DNA of 64,000 nucleotides, taken from contig NZ_CP109078.1 of assembly GCF_035917455.1 (NCBI RefSeq), positions 8,044,001-8,108,000 of the forward strand, read 5' to 3'. The notes beneath the pieces are model-generated. The model was not told the origin of the DNA. It searched no databases and saw only the letters and a program-made list of their open reading frames with translations. The stretch is from Micromonospora sp. NBC_01796 (GTDB lineage Bacteria; Actinomycetota; Actinomycetes; Mycobacteriales; Micromonosporaceae). Shown piece after piece: positions 49,381-57,640 of the stretch; the first letter of the stretch is position 1, and the number at the start of each line of letters is the position of its first letter. The position numbers and the translations under genes were made by a program.

Positions 49381-49777
49381 GTAGACGATTAGGTGTCGAC
49401 CAGCGACAACAACCCCGGCCGGGTCAGCGATGCGCGATAACGTAACCACCGACAGTGATCGACTGCGTCGGGTGGGCGGTCGCCCGCCGACCCCGACAAG
49501 CCGGCGACCGGGTCCACTGTGCCGGTTCCGACCGGCTGATCGACGCACCCGGACGTGCCGGTCGGACACCGCCCCACCTCGGTCGATGGCGGAAACGATC
49601 CGTCCGCAAGGGACGCCGGCACCCACCTCCGGACCACCGTCCACCGCCCGTACCGAGTACGGCGCCGAGAATCCCCGCCATCGGTCTCCACCGGTCCGAC
49701 CAGGCCAATTTCACACTTGACCGATCGGAATTGCCCGGATCCGGTCGGATCACCGACAGAACCACGTGGATCGATCG

Positions 49778-51296: not shown

Positions 51297-52124
51297 TCAG
51301 CCGGCCGTACCGGAAGTCCGGCCGCCCAGCGCCCGCGCCCGGTGCGCCGCGTCGGCGACGAGCCGCCGCAGCAACCCCGGCTCCACCCCCGCCCCGGCCA
51401 CCACCGCCGGCAACAGTCCGTCGGGGTCCAGCTCCGGCAGACCCGGCGGTACGGGCGGCAGCGCGGCCACCGGCAGCGCGAACGCCTCCGTCGCGGCGAC
51501 CCCGACCGGCCCCGCCCCGAACCCCGGCAACGGGCTCGGTGGCTGCCGTCGCAGGTCCCCGAGCAGCTCGGCGGCGCCCCGACCGCGCAGGAGCAGCAGC
51601 ACGAACGGATCCGCGTCGATCAGCCACGCCGACTGGTAACAGAGCGCCGCCGCGTGCCGGCACGGGAACTCCCAGTCCGGGCAGGAGCAGTGCGGTTGCA
51701 GGTCGCCGATTCCGGGCAGCAGCCGTACGTCGACGTCGTGTGCCGCGTCGACCAGTTCCTGCGGGACGTCCCCGTCGAGCAGGGCGGCGAGGTGACCCGC
51801 CTTCGCCGTGATCGCCCCGAGCAGCCGCTCCCACTCCGGGCCGGTGAGCCGCTCCACCTCCACCACCGTCCGGTACGAGCCGCCCGCGTCGTCGTACACG
51901 GTGGCGGCGAGCCGCCCCGGGCTGACCGTGATCGAACCGACGTGCCCCCCGTACGCGAACCGCCGCCCCTTGCGGAGCTGGATGCTGTCCAGCGCGGTCT
52001 CCTCCATCGCGGTCAGCCAGGCCCGTCCCCACCACGACCGGGCGAAGCGCGGGATCCGACGCAACCCCTTCGGGAACGCCGGAAAGCCCAGCACCTCGCC
52101 GCCGCCACTGCCGCCGTCGGTCAT
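51297..52124 (-). CDS. SWIM zinc-finger protein
   Basis: 275 residues. The CxCxnCxH zinc motif is CSCPDWEFPCRH (about residues 146-157). The N-terminal part (RSWWGRAWLTAMEETALDSIQLRKGRRFAYGGHVGSI) is typical of the SWIM proteins that accompany SNF2 ATPases in actinobacteria. The domain binds nucleic acid or protein. ATG 52124 overlaps the SNF2 stop (ATGA). Last gene of a four-gene overlapping chain. Confidence 0.9.
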   Translation of the reverse strand: MTDGGSGGGEVLGFPAFPKGLRRIPRFARSWWGRAWLTAMEETALDSIQLRKGRRFAYGGHVGSITVSPGRLAATVYDDAGGSYRTVVEVERLTGPEWERLLGAITAKAGHLAALLDGDVPQELVDAAHDVDVRLLPGIGDLQPHCSCPDWEFPCRHAAALCYQSAWLIDADPFVLLLLRGRGAAELLGDLRRQPPSPLPGFGAGPVGVAATEAFALPVAALPPVPPGLPELDPDGLLPAVVAGAGVEPGLLRRLVADAAHRARALGGRTSGTAG

Positions 52125-54940
52125 GCCGTCTCCCGCAGGGTCACCAGTTCGGCCAGTTCGTCGTCGGTCAACTCGGTCAGCGCCGCCGCGCCACCGGCCA
52201 GGACCGCGTCGGCCAGCCCGCGCTTGTCGGCGATGGTCCGGGCGATCAGGTCCTCCACCGTGCCCTCGGCGATCAGCCGGTGCACCTGCACCGGCCGGGT
52301 CTGCCCGATCCGGTACGCCCGGTCGGTGGCCTGGTCCTCGACCGCCGGGTTCCACCAGCGGTCGTAGTGGATCACGTGGTCGGCGCGGGTCAGGTTGAGC
52401 CCTGTCCCGGCGGCCTTCAGCGAGAGCAGGAACACCGGGACCTCGCCGGCCTGGAACCGCTCCACCAACTCCTCGCGCCGGTGGACCGGGGTGCCGCCGT
52501 GCAACAGCCGGGTGGTGATCCCGCGCCCGGTGAGGTGCCGTTCGAGCAGCCGGGCCATGGCCACGTACTGGGTGAAGACCAGGGCCGCTCCCCCACCGGC
52601 GAGGATCGTGTCGAGCAGCTCGTCGAGCAGTTCCAGCTTGCCGGACCTGCCGCGCAGCCGGGGCTCCTCCTCGGCCAGGTACTGCGCCGGATGGTTGCAG
52701 ATCTGCTTCAACGCGGTCAGCAGCGCCAGCACCAGACCCCGACGGGCCATCCCGGTGCTGAGCCGGATCTGCTCCAGGGTCTCCCGGACCACCGCCTCGT
52801 AGAGCCCCGCCTGCTCCGGTGTCAGGGTCACCGGCCGGTCGGTCTCGGTCTTTGCCGGCAGCTCCGGGGCGATCCCCGGATCCGTCTTGCGCCGGCGGAG
52901 CAGGAACGGGCCGACCAGCCGGGCGAGCCGGTCGAGGTCGGCCGCGCCGTCCGGGCGCACCCATCGCTCCCGGAACGCGGGCAGCGGGCCGAGCAGCCCC
53001 GGCGTGGTCCAGTCGAGGATCGCCCACAGCTCGGTCAGGTTGTTCTCCACCGGTGTGCCGCTCAGCGCCACCCTGGCCCCGGTGTTGATGGTCCGCAACG
53101 CCTTGGCGGTGTCCGACGCCGGGTTCTTGACGTGCTGGGCCTCGTCGGCGACGACCATCCCCCAGCGCTGACCGGCCAGCCGGGCGGCGTCCAGCCGCAT
53201 GGTGCCGTACGTGGTGAGGGTGAACCCGTCGGCCGGGTCCAGATCCCGACCGGTCCCGTGGAACCGGCGTACGGGCACACCGGGGGCGAACCGGCGGATC
53301 TCCCGTTCCCAGTTGCCGAGCAGCGAGGCCGGGCAGACGACCAGGGTCGGCCCGGCGGTCTCCGGATCCCGGCTGCGGTGCAGGTGCAGGGCGATCAGCG
53401 TGATGGTCTTGCCGAGTCCCATGTCGTCGGCGAGGCAGGCGCCCAGGCCGAGCGAGGTCATCCGGGTCAGCCAGCGCAGACCGCGAAGCTGGTAGTCGCG
53501 CAGGGTCGCGGCCAGTCCGGCGGGTGCGGGCAGCGGCTCGGAGCCGCCGTCGGCGTCGACGATGCGCCGCCGCAGGTCCTCCAGCCAGCCGGTCGACCCG
53601 ACCCGCACCGACCGCCCGTCGATCTCGACCGTGCCGGTCAGCGCGGCGCCGAGGGCGGCGACCGGGCTCAGCGCCGGCAGAACCCGTTGCCGGGCCCGGC
53701 GTACGGTCTCCGGGTCGACCAGGACCCACCGACCGCGCAGCCGGGCGATCGGCCGGTGCGCCTCGGCGAGTTGGTCCATCTCCGCCGCGCTCAGCGGGGT
53801 CCCGCCGAGGGCCACCTGCCAGTTGAACTCCAGCAGCCGGCCGTCGCCGAACAGCCCGCCGCTGCCGGCCGGCAGGTCCCGGCCGCCACCGAGCAGCGCG
53901 GTGGTGCTCAACTCGGCGGCCAGTTCGCGGGGCCAGTGCACCGCCACCCCGGCCGCCGCCAGCCGAGCGGCGCCGCCGCCGAGCAGGTCGGTGACCTCGT
54001 CGTCGTCGAGTACGAGGGTGTCCGGCACCGCGTCGTCGAGCAGGCGCCCCAGCGGCGGGAACACCCGCCCGGCGCGGCGTACGGCCAGGCTGGTGTCGGT
54101 ACGGGCACTGTCCGACCGGCCCGCCCACGATCCCGCCCCGCCCGTCGGCGTCCAGAGCGCACGGGCGTCGACCAGCGAGCCGGGGTCGCCCCGGTCGGCG
54201 ACCTGGAGCACCGCCCGCAGCGGCTGGGTGCCGACGTCGTCCGGATCGGCCTCGATCCGCAGCGACAGCCGGATCCCGGTGTCCACCGCGGCGATCTCCC
54301 CGGCCCAGTCGCGCAGTTCCGCGGCGGGTTGTGGTGCGTCGGCGGCGTAGGCACCGGTGGCGTCGGGGCGCCGGGGCAGGGTGTCGGCGACCGCGTCGAG
54401 GAACCGGCGTACCAGCGTCACGGCGTCGGGGAGCCGGGGCGGGTCCTGCTCGGGCAGTGGTATCGCCCGCGCGGTGGCCGGCATCGCGGCCCCGAGTGCG
54501 GCGACCCGCTCCAGGTCGGACTCGTCGAACGGGCCGATCCGCCAGGCGTCGAACCCGTCCGGGGAGATCCCCGGCAGCAGCCGCCCCCGGCCGACCAGGT
54601 GCAGGGCCTCGTCGGCGGCGGCACCCCAGAACACCGCCGCCGGGTGCGCCGTACCGTCGTCGCGGCGGGCCCGTACGAGCAGCGGCAGGGCGTCGCGTAC
54701 GGGCAGCCGGCGGGCCTCGACCGTACGGGTGGTGACCGCCGTCGGGTCGGCCGGATCCGGGGTGAGCACGGTGAGCTTGCCCGGCTCGCCCACCGGCTCC
54801 GGTGCACCCTCGGCGGTCCAGAAGGCCACCGTCCCGGCGCGGGGCGGGTCGGCCGGTTCGAACAGGACGGCGCACCGGGTCAGCTCGACCCGGGGCCCCT
54901 CCCCGGTGGGATCGCCCGCCGCGACCAGCCCGCCGGTCAC
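52121..54940 (-). CDS. SNF2-family DEAD/H ATPase
   Basis: 939 residues. An N-terminal region of about 470 residues (SNF2-associated domain) precedes the helicase core: motif I DDMGLGKT (505-512), motif II DEAQ (599-602), ALSGTPVENNL (motif III), and motif VI-like ATDRAYRIGQTRPV near residue 875. These ATPases track on double-stranded DNA and remodel bound proteins, possibly RNA polymerase. GTG 54940 overlaps the ABC permease stop (GTGA), tying it to drug-export genes. Confidence 0.92.
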   Translation of the reverse strand: MTGGLVAAGDPTGEGPRVELTRCAVLFEPADPPRAGTVAFWTAEGAPEPVGEPGKLTVLTPDPADPTAVTTRTVEARRLPVRDALPLLVRARRDDGTAHPAAVFWGAAADEALHLVGRGRLLPGISPDGFDAWRIGPFDESDLERVAALGAAMPATARAIPLPEQDPPRLPDAVTLVRRFLDAVADTLPRRPDATGAYAADAPQPAAELRDWAGEIAAVDTGIRLSLRIEADPDDVGTQPLRAVLQVADRGDPGSLVDARALWTPTGGAGSWAGRSDSARTDTSLAVRRAGRVFPPLGRLLDDAVPDTLVLDDDEVTDLLGGGAARLAAAGVAVHWPRELAAELSTTALLGGGRDLPAGSGGLFGDGRLLEFNWQVALGGTPLSAAEMDQLAEAHRPIARLRGRWVLVDPETVRRARQRVLPALSPVAALGAALTGTVEIDGRSVRVGSTGWLEDLRRRIVDADGGSEPLPAPAGLAATLRDYQLRGLRWLTRMTSLGLGACLADDMGLGKTITLIALHLHRSRDPETAGPTLVVCPASLLGNWEREIRRFAPGVPVRRFHGTGRDLDPADGFTLTTYGTMRLDAARLAGQRWGMVVADEAQHVKNPASDTAKALRTINTGARVALSGTPVENNLTELWAILDWTTPGLLGPLPAFRERWVRPDGAADLDRLARLVGPFLLRRRKTDPGIAPELPAKTETDRPVTLTPEQAGLYEAVVRETLEQIRLSTGMARRGLVLALLTALKQICNHPAQYLAEEEPRLRGRSGKLELLDELLDTILAGGGAALVFTQYVAMARLLERHLTGRGITTRLLHGGTPVHRREELVERFQAGEVPVFLLSLKAAGTGLNLTRADHVIHYDRWWNPAVEDQATDRAYRIGQTRPVQVHRLIAEGTVEDLIARTIADKRGLADAVLAGGAAALTELTDDELAELVTLRETA

Positions 54941-55764
54941 GCGCCCAGCCTGCGGTAACGGCGTACGGCGAGGGGGAAGAAGACCACGATCAGCAGGGTA
55001 GGCCAGAGCACCGCCATCAGCAGGGCGTGCTGGGCGATCCAGGAGTCACCACCCCACCCGGGGTTGCCGAACAGCTCCCGGGTCGCGGCGACGGTCGAGG
55101 AGAGCGGGTTCCACTCGGCGATCGCACCGAGCCAGCCCGGCATGGTCTGCGGCGCGGCGAAGGTGTTGGACAGGAAGCCCAGTGGCCACACCAGGATCTG
55201 TACGGCAACCAGCGCCTCCGGGCCCTTGGCCAGCAGGCCGAGCCAGATGCCGACCCAGAGCAGCGCGAAGCGCAGCAGCAGGAGCAGTCCGATGGCGGCG
55301 GCGGCGCGTACCGGGCCCTGGTGCCAGGACCAGCCGACGGCGAGCCCGCAGCCGATCATCAGGGCCAGGCCGACGACCGAGTTGAGCAGGTCGGCGGTGC
55401 CGCGACCGACCACCACCGCCGACGGTGCCATCGGCATCGACCGGAACCGGTCGGTGACGCCCCTGGCGGCGTCGGTGGCGACCGCGGCGAACGTCGTCTC
55501 CAGCCCGAAGACCATGGTCAGGGCGAACATTCCGGGCAGCAGGAACTCCCGGTAGTCGCCGCCGCCCGGCACGGTCATGCCGCCACCGAGCAGGTAGCCG
55601 AACATGAGCACGGTCAGCACCGGGAAGAGCAACGCGATGACGATCTGCCATGGCTGCCGGGCCCAGTGGGAGAGGTCCCGGTGGGTGATCGTCCAGCCGT
55701 CGGCGACGGCCCAGCGCAGCCGGCCGAGCACCGACCGGGCCGGGGGCGGGGCGAGGGTCGTCAC
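54937..55764 (-). CDS. ABC-2 type drug-efflux permease (DrrB-like)
   Basis: 275 residues, six helices. Typical text is FGYLLGGGMTVPGGGDYREFLLPGMFALTMVFG, RFRSMPMAPSAVVVGR and GFLSNTFAAPQTMPGWL. GTG 55764 overlaps the ATPase stop (GTGA). With the ATPase it forms a DrrAB-like exporter of hydrophobic drugs such as anthracyclines. Confidence 0.92.
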   Translation of the reverse strand: MTTLAPPPARSVLGRLRWAVADGWTITHRDLSHWARQPWQIVIALLFPVLTVLMFGYLLGGGMTVPGGGDYREFLLPGMFALTMVFGLETTFAAVATDAARGVTDRFRSMPMAPSAVVVGRGTADLLNSVVGLALMIGCGLAVGWSWHQGPVRAAAAIGLLLLLRFALLWVGIWLGLLAKGPEALVAVQILVWPLGFLSNTFAAPQTMPGWLGAIAEWNPLSSTVAATRELFGNPGWGGDSWIAQHALLMAVLWPTLLIVVFFPLAVRRYRRLGA

Positions 55765-56759
55765 GCGGTCACCTTCTTTTCGTCGGAGGCGGCGGTGCCA
55801 CTGTCGGCGGTGGTGGCCGGGCGCCCGGTCAGGTGCAGGAAAACCTCGTCGAGGGTGGGGCGGCGCAGCGCGATGTCCTCGGCGTCGACCCCGGCGGCGT
55901 CGAGTCCCCGGACGACGGCGGTGAGCGCGGGGACCCGGTCGGCGACGGGTGCGCTGATCCGCCGGGTGTCCGGGTCGACCTTGGGCTCGGCGCCGGTGAT
56001 CCCGGCGATCACCGAGGCGGCCACGGGCAGTTGGGCGCCGTCGGTGACCACCACGTCGATCCGGTCCCCGCCGAGCCGCGACTTGAGCTGGTCGGTGCTG
56101 CCCTCGGCGATGCTCCGGCCGTGGTCGACCACCGAGATCCGGTCGGCGAGCTGGTCGGCCTCGTCCAGGTACTGGGTGGTGAGCAGGACCGTGGTGCCGC
56201 CCGCGACCAGGCTCCGGACGGCGTCCCAGACCTCGGCCCGGCTGCGCGGGTCGAGCCCGGTGGTCGGTTCGTCGAGGAAGAGCACCGGTGGGGCGAGGAT
56301 CAGGCTCGCGGCGAGGTCGAGCCGCCGGCGCATGCCGCCGGAGTAGCGGCCGACGGGTTTGTCGCCGGTGTCGGCGAGACCGAACCGGGCGAGCAGTTCG
56401 TCGGCCCGGCGCCGGGCGGTGGCGGCGGGCAGGTGGTAGAGCCGGCCGAACATGACCAGGTTCTGCCGGCCGCCGAGGATCTCGTCCACCGCGGCGTGCT
56501 GGCCGACCAACCCGATCTGGGTGCGTACCGCGACCGGGTCGCGTACGACGTCGTAGCCGGCGACCAGGGCCCGGCCGGCGTCGGGTCGCAGCAGTGTGGT
56601 GAGGATGCGTACGGCGGTGGTCTTGCCGGCGCCGTTCGGCCCGAGCAGGCCGTGCACCGTGCCGGGTTGTACGGAGAGGTCGAATCCGTCGAGTGCGGGG
56701 CGCCCACCGTAGCGCTTGACCAGACCCTCGACCTGTACGGCTGCCGCTGCCACTGCCAT
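55761..56759 (-). CDS. Daunorubicin-resistance-type ABC ATPase (DrrA-like)
   Basis: 332 residues. Walker A GPNGAGKT, signature YSGGMRRRLDLAASLI, Walker B VLFLDEPTTGLD and the DrrA-specific C-terminal domain (ALRRPTLDEVFLHLTGR) are intact. It is the first gene of the minus-strand chain and is divergent from a TetR gene across a double operator. Confidence 0.93.
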   Translation of the reverse strand: MAVAAAAVQVEGLVKRYGGRPALDGFDLSVQPGTVHGLLGPNGAGKTTAVRILTTLLRPDAGRALVAGYDVVRDPVAVRTQIGLVGQHAAVDEILGGRQNLVMFGRLYHLPAATARRRADELLARFGLADTGDKPVGRYSGGMRRRLDLAASLILAPPVLFLDEPTTGLDPRSRAEVWDAVRSLVAGGTTVLLTTQYLDEADQLADRISVVDHGRSIAEGSTDQLKSRLGGDRIDVVVTDGAQLPVAASVIAGITGAEPKVDPDTRRISAPVADRVPALTAVVRGLDAAGVDAEDIALRRPTLDEVFLHLTGRPATTADSGTAASDEKKVTA

Positions 56760-56775
56760 CCGGACCCCTTAAGAT

Positions 56776-56809
56776 CGTACGGTGTACGGAGCAGACCGTA
56801 CACCGTACG
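56776..56809. promoter_or_regulatory. Double TetR operator between drrA-like and tetR genes
   Basis: CGTACGGTGTACGG (56776-56789) and its exact inverse (56796-56809) are separated by 6 bases. Each arm is itself a palindrome, CGTAC-N3-GTACG. The site lies in the 95-base divergent gap. Confidence 0.75.
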
Positions 56810-56854
56810 GTTGGCGAGTGCCAACCCGAATCGCGAGCGTCCCCGGGAGCGGCC

Positions 56855-57640
56855 ATGACCACCGAGTACACCGGCAGCGGAGACCCGGCCCGGAGCATGG
56901 CCCTGCTCTGGCGCGGACCGGAGAAGCCGGCGCCCCGCTCCGGGCTGACCGTCGACCGGATCGTCGACACGGCGATCGAACTGGCCGACGCCGAGGGCCT
57001 CGCCGCCCTGTCCATGCGCAAGCTCGCCGAACGGCTCGGCGTCGGGGTGATGTCGCTCTACACGTACGTGCCGAGCAAGGCCGAACTGGTCGACGTCATG
57101 CTCGACGCGGTGCTGGGGCGGATGGACCGGCCGGACGAGGGTGACCTGGACTGGCGGACCCGGCTCGAACACATCGCCAGGGAGAACCTGACCACCTACC
57201 AGCGACATCCGTGGATGCTCGAGGTCGCCGTCCAGCGACCCCCGATGGGCCCGCACCTGATCGCCAAGTACGACTACGAGCTGCGGGCGCTGTCCGGCAT
57301 CGGGCTGACCGAGGTGGAGATGGACTCGGTGCTCACCCTGCTGCTCGGGTACGTCGCCGGGGCGGCCCGGGGCACGGTGGATGCGGTCCAGGTCGAACGC
57401 CGGACGGGGATGACCGACGAACAGTGGTGGGCCGCCCAGGCCCCGCTGCTGGAGCAGGTCCTCGACCCGGACAGCTACCCGGTCGCGAGCGCGGTCGGCA
57501 GCGCGGCGGGCGAGGCGAACCAGGGCGCGTACGACCCGAACGGGGCCTTCGAGTTCGGCCTGGAGCGGGTGCTCGACGGGATCGAGGTCTTCGTCCGACG
57601 TACGGACCACTCCGCCGACCGAGGCCAGCCGGCGGAGTGA
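56855..57640 (+). CDS. TetR family regulator with TetR_C_1-type domain
   Basis: 261 residues. The helix-turn-helix is IVDTAIELADAEGLAALSMRKLAERLGVGVMSLYTYVPSKAELVDVM, followed by a long C-terminal ligand domain of the TetR_C_1 type. This class commonly represses drug pumps. ATG 56855 has GGGAG 5 bases upstream. Its probable targets are the divergent DrrAB-SNF2-SWIM chain and itself. Confidence 0.9.
   Translation: MTTEYTGSGDPARSMALLWRGPEKPAPRSGLTVDRIVDTAIELADAEGLAALSMRKLAERLGVGVMSLYTYVPSKAELVDVMLDAVLGRMDRPDEGDLDWRTRLEHIARENLTTYQRHPWMLEVAVQRPPMGPHLIAKYDYELRALSGIGLTEVEMDSVLTLLLGYVAGAARGTVDAVQVERRTGMTDEQWWAAQAPLLEQVLDPDSYPVASAVGSAAGEANQGAYDPNGAFEFGLERVLDGIEVFVRRTDHSADRGQPAE

Follow-up and report, generated by a model that had tools for sequence, protein, structure and literature searches.

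An operator-like dyad is common to the loci of an exporter predicted to be TetR-regulated and of an SNF2-SWIM gene pair, whether the two are linked or unlinked, and this regulatory result, as read from sequence, is what is new in the present analysis. The locus on which it centres, in Micromonospora sp. NBC_01796, is probably a drug-sensing operon, in which one ligand-released repressor would govern a DrrAB exporter and an SNF2-SWIM remodeller, in cis or in trans. This interpretation is carried by the gene order, the intact motors, the conserved operator-like dyad and the retention of the dyad at SNF2-SWIM loci when the exporter lies elsewhere.

The window, a stretch of 64,000 nucleotides, covers positions 8,044,001-8,108,000 of the single-contig 8.56-Mb genome of this strain. 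On its reverse strand lie a drrA-like ABC ATPase (332 aa, 55761..56759), a drrB-like ABC-2 permease (275 aa, 54937..55764), an SNF2-family ATPase (939 aa, 52121..54940) and a SWIM zinc-finger partner (275 aa, 51297..52124), and on the forward strand, divergent from this putative operon, a SimR/ActR-like repressor of the TetR family (261 aa, 56855..57640). The coordinates confirm the initial annotation, which had described the four genes as chained by three 4-nt overlaps (GTGA between drrA and drrB, GTGA between drrB and SNF2, ATGA between SNF2 and SWIM) beside a divergent TetR. A rough gene caller placed 4-base overlaps in 4 of 26 co-directional pairs of the window, a count outside which the three overlaps of the locus stand because the caller missed drrB and SWIM; since such overlaps are not rare in the window, they are weak evidence alone, and the real evidence is the conserved gene order together with the shared operator. 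The sigma-70 promoter scan found none, and the terminator scan gave one terminator-like site against 0.8 by chance.

No internal stop was present in the frames of drrA, drrB, SNF2 or SWIM. DrrA carries the Pfam domain ABC_tran, with Walker A, the signature (YSGG) and Walker B intact, and passes TIGR01188 (356.2 bits, cut-off 312.45). DrrB carries ABC2_membrane (PF01061, 77 bits) and stays below the cut-offs of TIGR01247, the daunorubicin DrrB subfamily (53.4 against 223.05 bits), and of TIGR00025; judged by these scores it is DrrB-like in the broad sense only, a related type of ABC-2 permease. The SNF2 protein passes NF058637, the SCO1167/SCO6262 family helicase (1395.5 bits, cut-off 1200, over model positions 2-932 of 932); its SNF2-rel_dom, DUF3670 and Helicase_C domains are above the Pfam cut-offs, with ResIII slightly below, and its key motor motifs (DDMGLGKT, DEAQ, QATDRAYRIGQ) are intact. 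The SWIM protein matches PF04434 (28.6 bits, cut-off 19.6) with an intact CxCx6CxH motif, and its Cys and His residues are invariant across 27 aligned rows. It is a short form; many relatives reach about 400 aa, with about 150 extra C-terminal residues and a conserved RWYP...WWPAG pattern.

The structure model of the SWIM protein (mean pLDDT 86.6) resembles the SWIM module of ZSWIM8 over 91 aligned residues with an rmsd of 2.5 and a Z of 7.2 (next row 2.3), which lies in the range where a match may reflect a common arrangement and carries no word on function. A Foldseek search with this model gave no match at E<=0.001, and the sequence of the SWIM protein found none in the PDB at E<=1. The SNF2 model has a mean pLDDT of 77.9 and a pTM of 0.50. 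A recoded stop in SNF2 was considered, an in-frame TGA being flagged in many SNF2 genes of f17 (the presumed Pseudonocardiaceae, see below), and rejected: among 34 SNF2 loci checked, the alignment crosses the stop in five, always at query residue 937, the normal end. In a congener (G001, L117), SNF2 is split over two frames that meet around residues 280-335, either through a frameshift or because of faulty assembly. Another SNF2 gene, with 45-46% identity, occurs in the own genome (G000:C1:4909607-4911754, L143), where a SWIM gene is next downstream, and in two congeners.

The conservation of the gene order was evaluated over 145 SNF2 loci, composed of best matches and chosen stretches and hence a non-random sample, after removal of L094, L077 and L098 (duplicates of L128, L249 and L262) and of the own-genome paralogue L143. 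Family f1 was taken as Micromonosporaceae, and f17 and g112 were assigned to Pseudonocardiaceae and Amycolatopsis by inference. SNF2-SWIM pairs are widespread in actinomycetes, with SWIM downstream of SNF2 in 138 of the 145 loci, and drrB is found upstream of SNF2 in 24, which belong to at least three genera of Micromonosporaceae and to several that are Pseudonocardiaceae-like. The initial annotation would have counted a restriction to very close relatives as refutation; from this comparison it is evident that the order is not so restricted and extends across two families. The initial description of the coupling as unusual holds for SNF2-SWIM overall, given that drrA and drrB lie directly upstream in 2 of 80 named SNF2 loci (mostly Streptomyces), both from Amycolatopsis (L049, L110), but not within Micromonospora, where SNF2 was detected at E<=1e-220 in 29 of 159 genomes and drrB is upstream in 15 of these 29; in one of the 29, G773, SNF2 has hardly any sequence before it. 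For f1 the corresponding figures are 28 of 150 genomes with SNF2 at E<=1e-200 and 7 of 28 with drrB upstream, the genome of the window included; three genomes are common to the two drrB-upstream counts. Family f17 has SNF2 in 48 of 249 genomes, of which 37 were examined (flanks of up to 1.5 kb in 30 genomes and up to about 6 kb in 20, 13 being in both), with drrB upstream in three (G631, G556, and G720 with about 1 kb between) and remnants in two, and family f18 has SNF2 at E<=1e-200 in 1 of 29 genomes.

Within the 24 drrB-linked loci, the 4-nt overlap supplies an ATG or GTG in frame with SNF2 in seven (this locus, L116, L127, L236, L248, L253 and L263). TetR is beside 19 of the 24, and just beyond the stretch in two more (L126, L257); where it is in the stretch, it is divergent from drrA or on the same strand downstream of SWIM (several Micromonospora, L237), with L255 having it upstream on the same strand. 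No TetR was found within the stretch of L049. An insert of about 1 kb separates drrB from SNF2 in L255, where it encodes a SnoaL-like protein, and in L237, where it encodes an alpha/beta hydrolase. SnoaL-like proteins occur in aromatic polyketide pathways, and the one in L255 is a hint at the compound.

An SNF2 tree was built by a quick method with midpoint root from 80 of the 145 rows (12 named loci, 27 of L116-L142, 40 of L228-L267 and the window). A branch with SH-aLRT 99 separates off 56 rows, which we call the group; every exporter-linked row belongs to it, scattered among unlinked rows. Linked DrrA and DrrB copies interleave, in their own trees, with free-standing TetR-DrrAB modules, and a single clade of linked copies was rejected by the AU test at p<1e-4 (p 4.3e-5 for DrrB; p 3.3e-5 for DrrA, whose tree leaves aside L129 and L256, too short). 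The linked copies do not form one clade, and therefore joining or splitting recurred; recurrent joining and recurrent loss both fit, as the counts cannot separate gain from loss. At L129, L230, L233 and L256 drrAB is cut down or decayed and the adjoining SNF2 is full length (922-953 aa), so that in these four loci the exporter went before the remodeller. The SNF2 of L038 (Nonomuraea basaltis) nests with short branches in the g112 rows of f17, beside G602, which is either a recent transfer or a misassigned contig. Downstream of free-standing drrB, a fixed partner was looked for with the rough caller and rejected, the neighbours being varied; L146 and L148 have similar genes at this place, and the L146 protein is a member of the uracil-DNA-glycosylase superfamily, another DNA-acting protein beside the exporter.

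The TetR protein possesses the Pfam domains TetR_N and TetR_C_1, and its best solved relative is SimR (2y2z, E 8.8e-36, residues 18-249 aligned), followed by 5ojx, named only TetR family regulator, and by ActR. As in the SimR/ActR type, its gene is divergent from those of an exporter, and two operator-like dyads lie between them. The dyad, CCGTAY-N3-RTACGG over 15 bp, was read off TetR-bearing loci and is scored over 12 positions. Its two copies between tetR and drrA, 21 bp apart, are TCGTACGGTGTACGG on the forward strand at 56775..56789, which agrees at 11 of 12 informative positions, and CCGTACACCGTACGG at 56796..56810; jointly they constitute a 14-bp inverted repeat with a 6-nt spacer (56776-56809), and the CCGTACACCGTACGG 15-mer is one of five exact dyad sites in the 8.56-Mb genome.

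This dyad recurs in relatives. It precedes drrA in all 24 exporter-linked loci, with at least 11 of 12 positions in 23 and 10 in L110. Nineteen of the 24 were in view when the motif was defined; the other five, without TetR in the stretch and independent of the definition, score 11, 11, 12, 11 and 11. Where TetR stands directly beside SNF2 without exporter (L122, L139, L234, also in view at the definition), a dyad of 12 is in the gap. Five loci having TetR downstream of SWIM (L127, L250, L254, L260, L264) carry a dyad of 11-12 before tetR itself, and L237 and L256 have none before their downstream tetR. No site of at least 10 was found in the 250 bp before SNF2 in L128, L230, L231, L233 and L261, which have TetR nearby; in L230 a dyad lies about 0.4 kb upstream of SNF2. 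Concerning free-standing modules, the best-scoring 29 DrrB loci from 113 genomes with a match were inspected: 19 of the 29 have a dyad of at least 11 before drrA, and four whose TetR is 42-43% identical have no dyad.

We then considered the 22 group loci without drrAB or TetR beside SNF2, unused in the motif definition. When the interval from -250 to +20 relative to the extrapolated start of SNF2 was scanned first, sites of at least 11 turned up in 10 of 22 loci and sites of at least 10 in 14 of 22; after sites at +28 to +43 appeared in L119, L238 and L240 the scan was widened downstream, and from -150 to +60 it gave at least 11 in 13, at least 10 in 17 and 12 of 12 in 8, five loci having no site at >=10 in this interval. 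Near the SNF2 start the dyad has a density of 3.0 per kb, and in the remainder of these 22 loci one of 0.008 per kb, a 382-fold difference. Outside the group, in 89 loci that are mostly Streptomyces (24 in the SNF2 tree and 65 named Streptomyces loci placed by name only), the dyad reaches 11 in none and 10 in four. A listing of dyads blind to the motif ranks CCGTA-N5-TACGG and CGTAC-N3-GTACG first in the 22 loci, with 8 of 22 each; because other dyads inside the SNF2 coding region also reach 7-8 in shifted control windows, this listing supports the dyad less strongly than the density does. For 16 of the 22 loci the upstream neighbours of SNF2 were determined with the rough caller and by visual inspection; they fall into about ten kinds, common only to near relatives, and are co-directional in 5 of 16, so that SNF2 is what these loci share. 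Of the 89 outside-group loci, mostly L036-L115, 27 carry a 10-bp palindrome, TCAAATTTGA, in the interval from -150 to +60 relative to the start of SNF2; it is a different element and may mark a different control of the SNF2-SWIM pair in Streptomyces.

Thirteen genomes with unlinked SNF2 were tested for a repressor that could act in trans, and a SimR-like TetR is encoded elsewhere in every one (best E 2.1e-66 to 7.6e-103), with drrA within 1.5 kb of it in 10. In these genomes a site of at least 11 was found in the 1.5-kb surroundings of 11 of 15 better-ranked TetR loci (L269-L283), and around only 2 of 15 lower-ranked ones (L284-L298). In the Micromonospora genome G771 (7.2 Mb, one contig), exact sites are only two in number, one at SNF2 and the other some 0.97 Mb from it, between TetR and DrrA, and another Micromonospora, G864, likewise has only these two, the TetR-DrrA gap being on another contig. 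Five exact sites were counted in G439, SNF2 and the TetR-DrrA gap among them, and seven in G578, including SNF2 and a TetR; G703 has two, at SNF2 and at a place without match to these proteins, as does G097, and G602 has one, at SNF2. The strength of this genome-wide test differs by genome, because the reversed control pattern gives counts of 0 (G771, G864, G439), 1 (G097, G578), 2 (G703) and 4 (G602).

Among the 25 SNF2-bearing Micromonospora genomes that also have the TetR, the two genes lie no more than 5 kb apart in 17. An association of TetR with SNF2 by presence and absence was rejected, TetR being found in 25 of 29 SNF2-positive against 115 of 130 SNF2-negative genomes; TetR is equally common without SNF2, and therefore the exporter system does not need SNF2. 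Of the four other exact sites in the own genome, L314 is inside a predicted frame, L316 is between frames and has a weak drrA match only, L315 gave no frame with the frame filter, and the last is at window position 49648, near the own SWIM gene; no TetR, drrB or SNF2 match was found within about 2 kb of any of the four. A second DrrAB in the same genome (L317; drrA 66%, drrB 55%) has no site of at least 11 in its 5-kb stretch.

From these observations we infer the following course of events. The SimR-like TetR would bind the two predicted 15-bp operators between tetR and drrA until a small molecule, presumably a natural product acting on DNA or gyrase, releases it, and one transcript would then yield the DrrAB exporter and SNF2-SWIM. 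DrrAB would lower the level of the compound inside the cell, and SNF2-SWIM, predicted to be an ATP-driven motor on duplex DNA with a zinc-finger partner, would act on what the compound leaves on DNA, that is, the drug itself or trapped protein-DNA complexes, and could thereby parallel by other means the UvrA-like DrrC and Ecm16, which deal with intercalators, and HelR, which deals with RNA polymerase stalled by rifampicin. The proposal that one drug-responsive switch controls both export and clearance is thus partly supported, at the level of regulation as read from sequence, where a SimR/ActR-like repressor and a dyad kept at unlinked SNF2-SWIM speak for it; in the rest of the proposal the ligand would bind DNA, DrrAB would export it and SNF2-SWIM would clear stalled complexes. 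More tentatively, the SNF2-SWIM of the group might constitute a new class of antibiotic-protection machine: a translocase on duplex DNA, induced by the drug, would clear the chromosome of the drug or of complexes trapped by it while the co-regulated pump exports the drug, and the operator would make one regulon of the two even almost a megabase apart.

Several results weigh against the drug-sensing operon: Streptomyces-type SNF2-SWIM pairs are without exporter and operator, TetR occurs equally often in Micromonospora genomes lacking SNF2, no site of at least 10 is present in 5 of the 22 group loci, and drrAB was repeatedly lost or reduced. An account that we consider rather unlikely takes SNF2-SWIM to be a general DNA-maintenance pair captured by a common TetR-exporter promoter, the shared control being real but of benefit for dosage only, and the pair having no role in drug tolerance; it is favoured by the abundance of SNF2-SWIM without exporter or operator in Streptomyces (a dyad of at least 11 in 0 of 72 Streptomyces-type loci), by that of TetR-DrrAB without SNF2 and by linked DrrAB not being monophyletic. 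However, the dyad is kept at unlinked SNF2 despite about ten kinds of upstream neighbours and varying positions, which argues that drug-linked control was selected.

The neighbouring TetR might also not control exporter and SNF2, the dyad belonging to another TetR paralogue or regulator. These genomes contain several TetR paralogues at 31-50% identity, and the binding of the dyad is predicted, but its preference for the surroundings of better-ranked TetR loci (11 of 15 at >=11, against 2 of 15), its presence before drrA in 19 of 29 free-standing DrrB loci, those with the best scores, and its absence from the four with a TetR of 42-43% identity make such a regulator improbable. It is more improbable still, to the point that we rejected it, that the locus serves anti-phage defence, with SNF2 as a defence helicase and the exporter as a chance neighbour. 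The PADLOC models DpdE, ZorD and DrmD do match the helicase core (best 384 bits), and drrA weakly matches five ABC/AAA-type PADLOC models (best 96 bits); yet SNF2 is far under the NCBIfam cut-offs specific to Zorya, DISARM and Dpd (ZorD 285 of 1500, DrmD 83 of 610 and DpdE 48 of 500 bits) and above that of the SCO1167/SCO6262 family, its PADLOC matches reflect the shared motor domain, SWIM and drrB have no PADLOC match, and the Pfam scan of the five neighbouring genes shows nothing defence-like.

The drug-sensing operon favoured here can be compared with SimR/SimX and ActR/ActA, exporters of Streptomyces under ligand-released repressors, which include the closest solved TetR relatives and in which, like here, the repressor is divergent from the exporter. 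As described in passages of PMC5812520, SimR binds two operators between the divergent simR and simX, recalling the two operator-like dyads of our gap, and simocyclinone releases it; SimX is an MFS pump, different from the ABC-2 exporter here, and those passages mention no SNF2-SWIM (PMC5812520).

DrrC pairs with DrrAB, and in the DrrAB-DrrC and Ecm16 systems export goes with a UvrA-like ATPase able to recognise DNA that carries the drug. According to PMC10192343, DrrC and Ecm16 are UvrA-like ATPases tied to resistance against DNA-bound drugs, so that, like here, an ABC exporter and a DNA-acting ATPase come together, and in producers both serve one DNA-binding compound (PMC10192343). The ATPase at our locus is instead an SNF2 protein with a SWIM partner, without a UvrA-like tandem ABC arrangement, and no biosynthetic gene was found by Pfam among the five neighbours. 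HelR, as recounted in passages of PMC10719064, came to light by way of a palindrome initially noticed at a gene for rifampicin modification, and the logic of this rifamycin-associated element is the same as ours, a palindrome shared with a drug-modifying gene pointing to the role of a motor-like protein in resistance (PMC10719064). HelR is of HelD type and acts on RNA polymerase, whereas the protein here is of SNF2 type, and its element resembles a TetR operator. Our result suggests a possible place for bacterial SNF2 motors in the antibiotic response, alongside UvrA-like and HelD-like proteins, and the near-unique operator common to the SimR-like repressor, the exporter and SNF2-SWIM offers a concrete and cheap functional test.

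The family whose cut-off SNF2 passes, NF058637, is named by locus tags only. In the literature searched, with subscription journals mostly outside its scope, we found no drug-repressor regulon or assigned role for SCO1167/SCO6262 or SNF2-SWIM. Transcription of SCO1167 is reported to be raised in two regulator mutants (PMC3282765).
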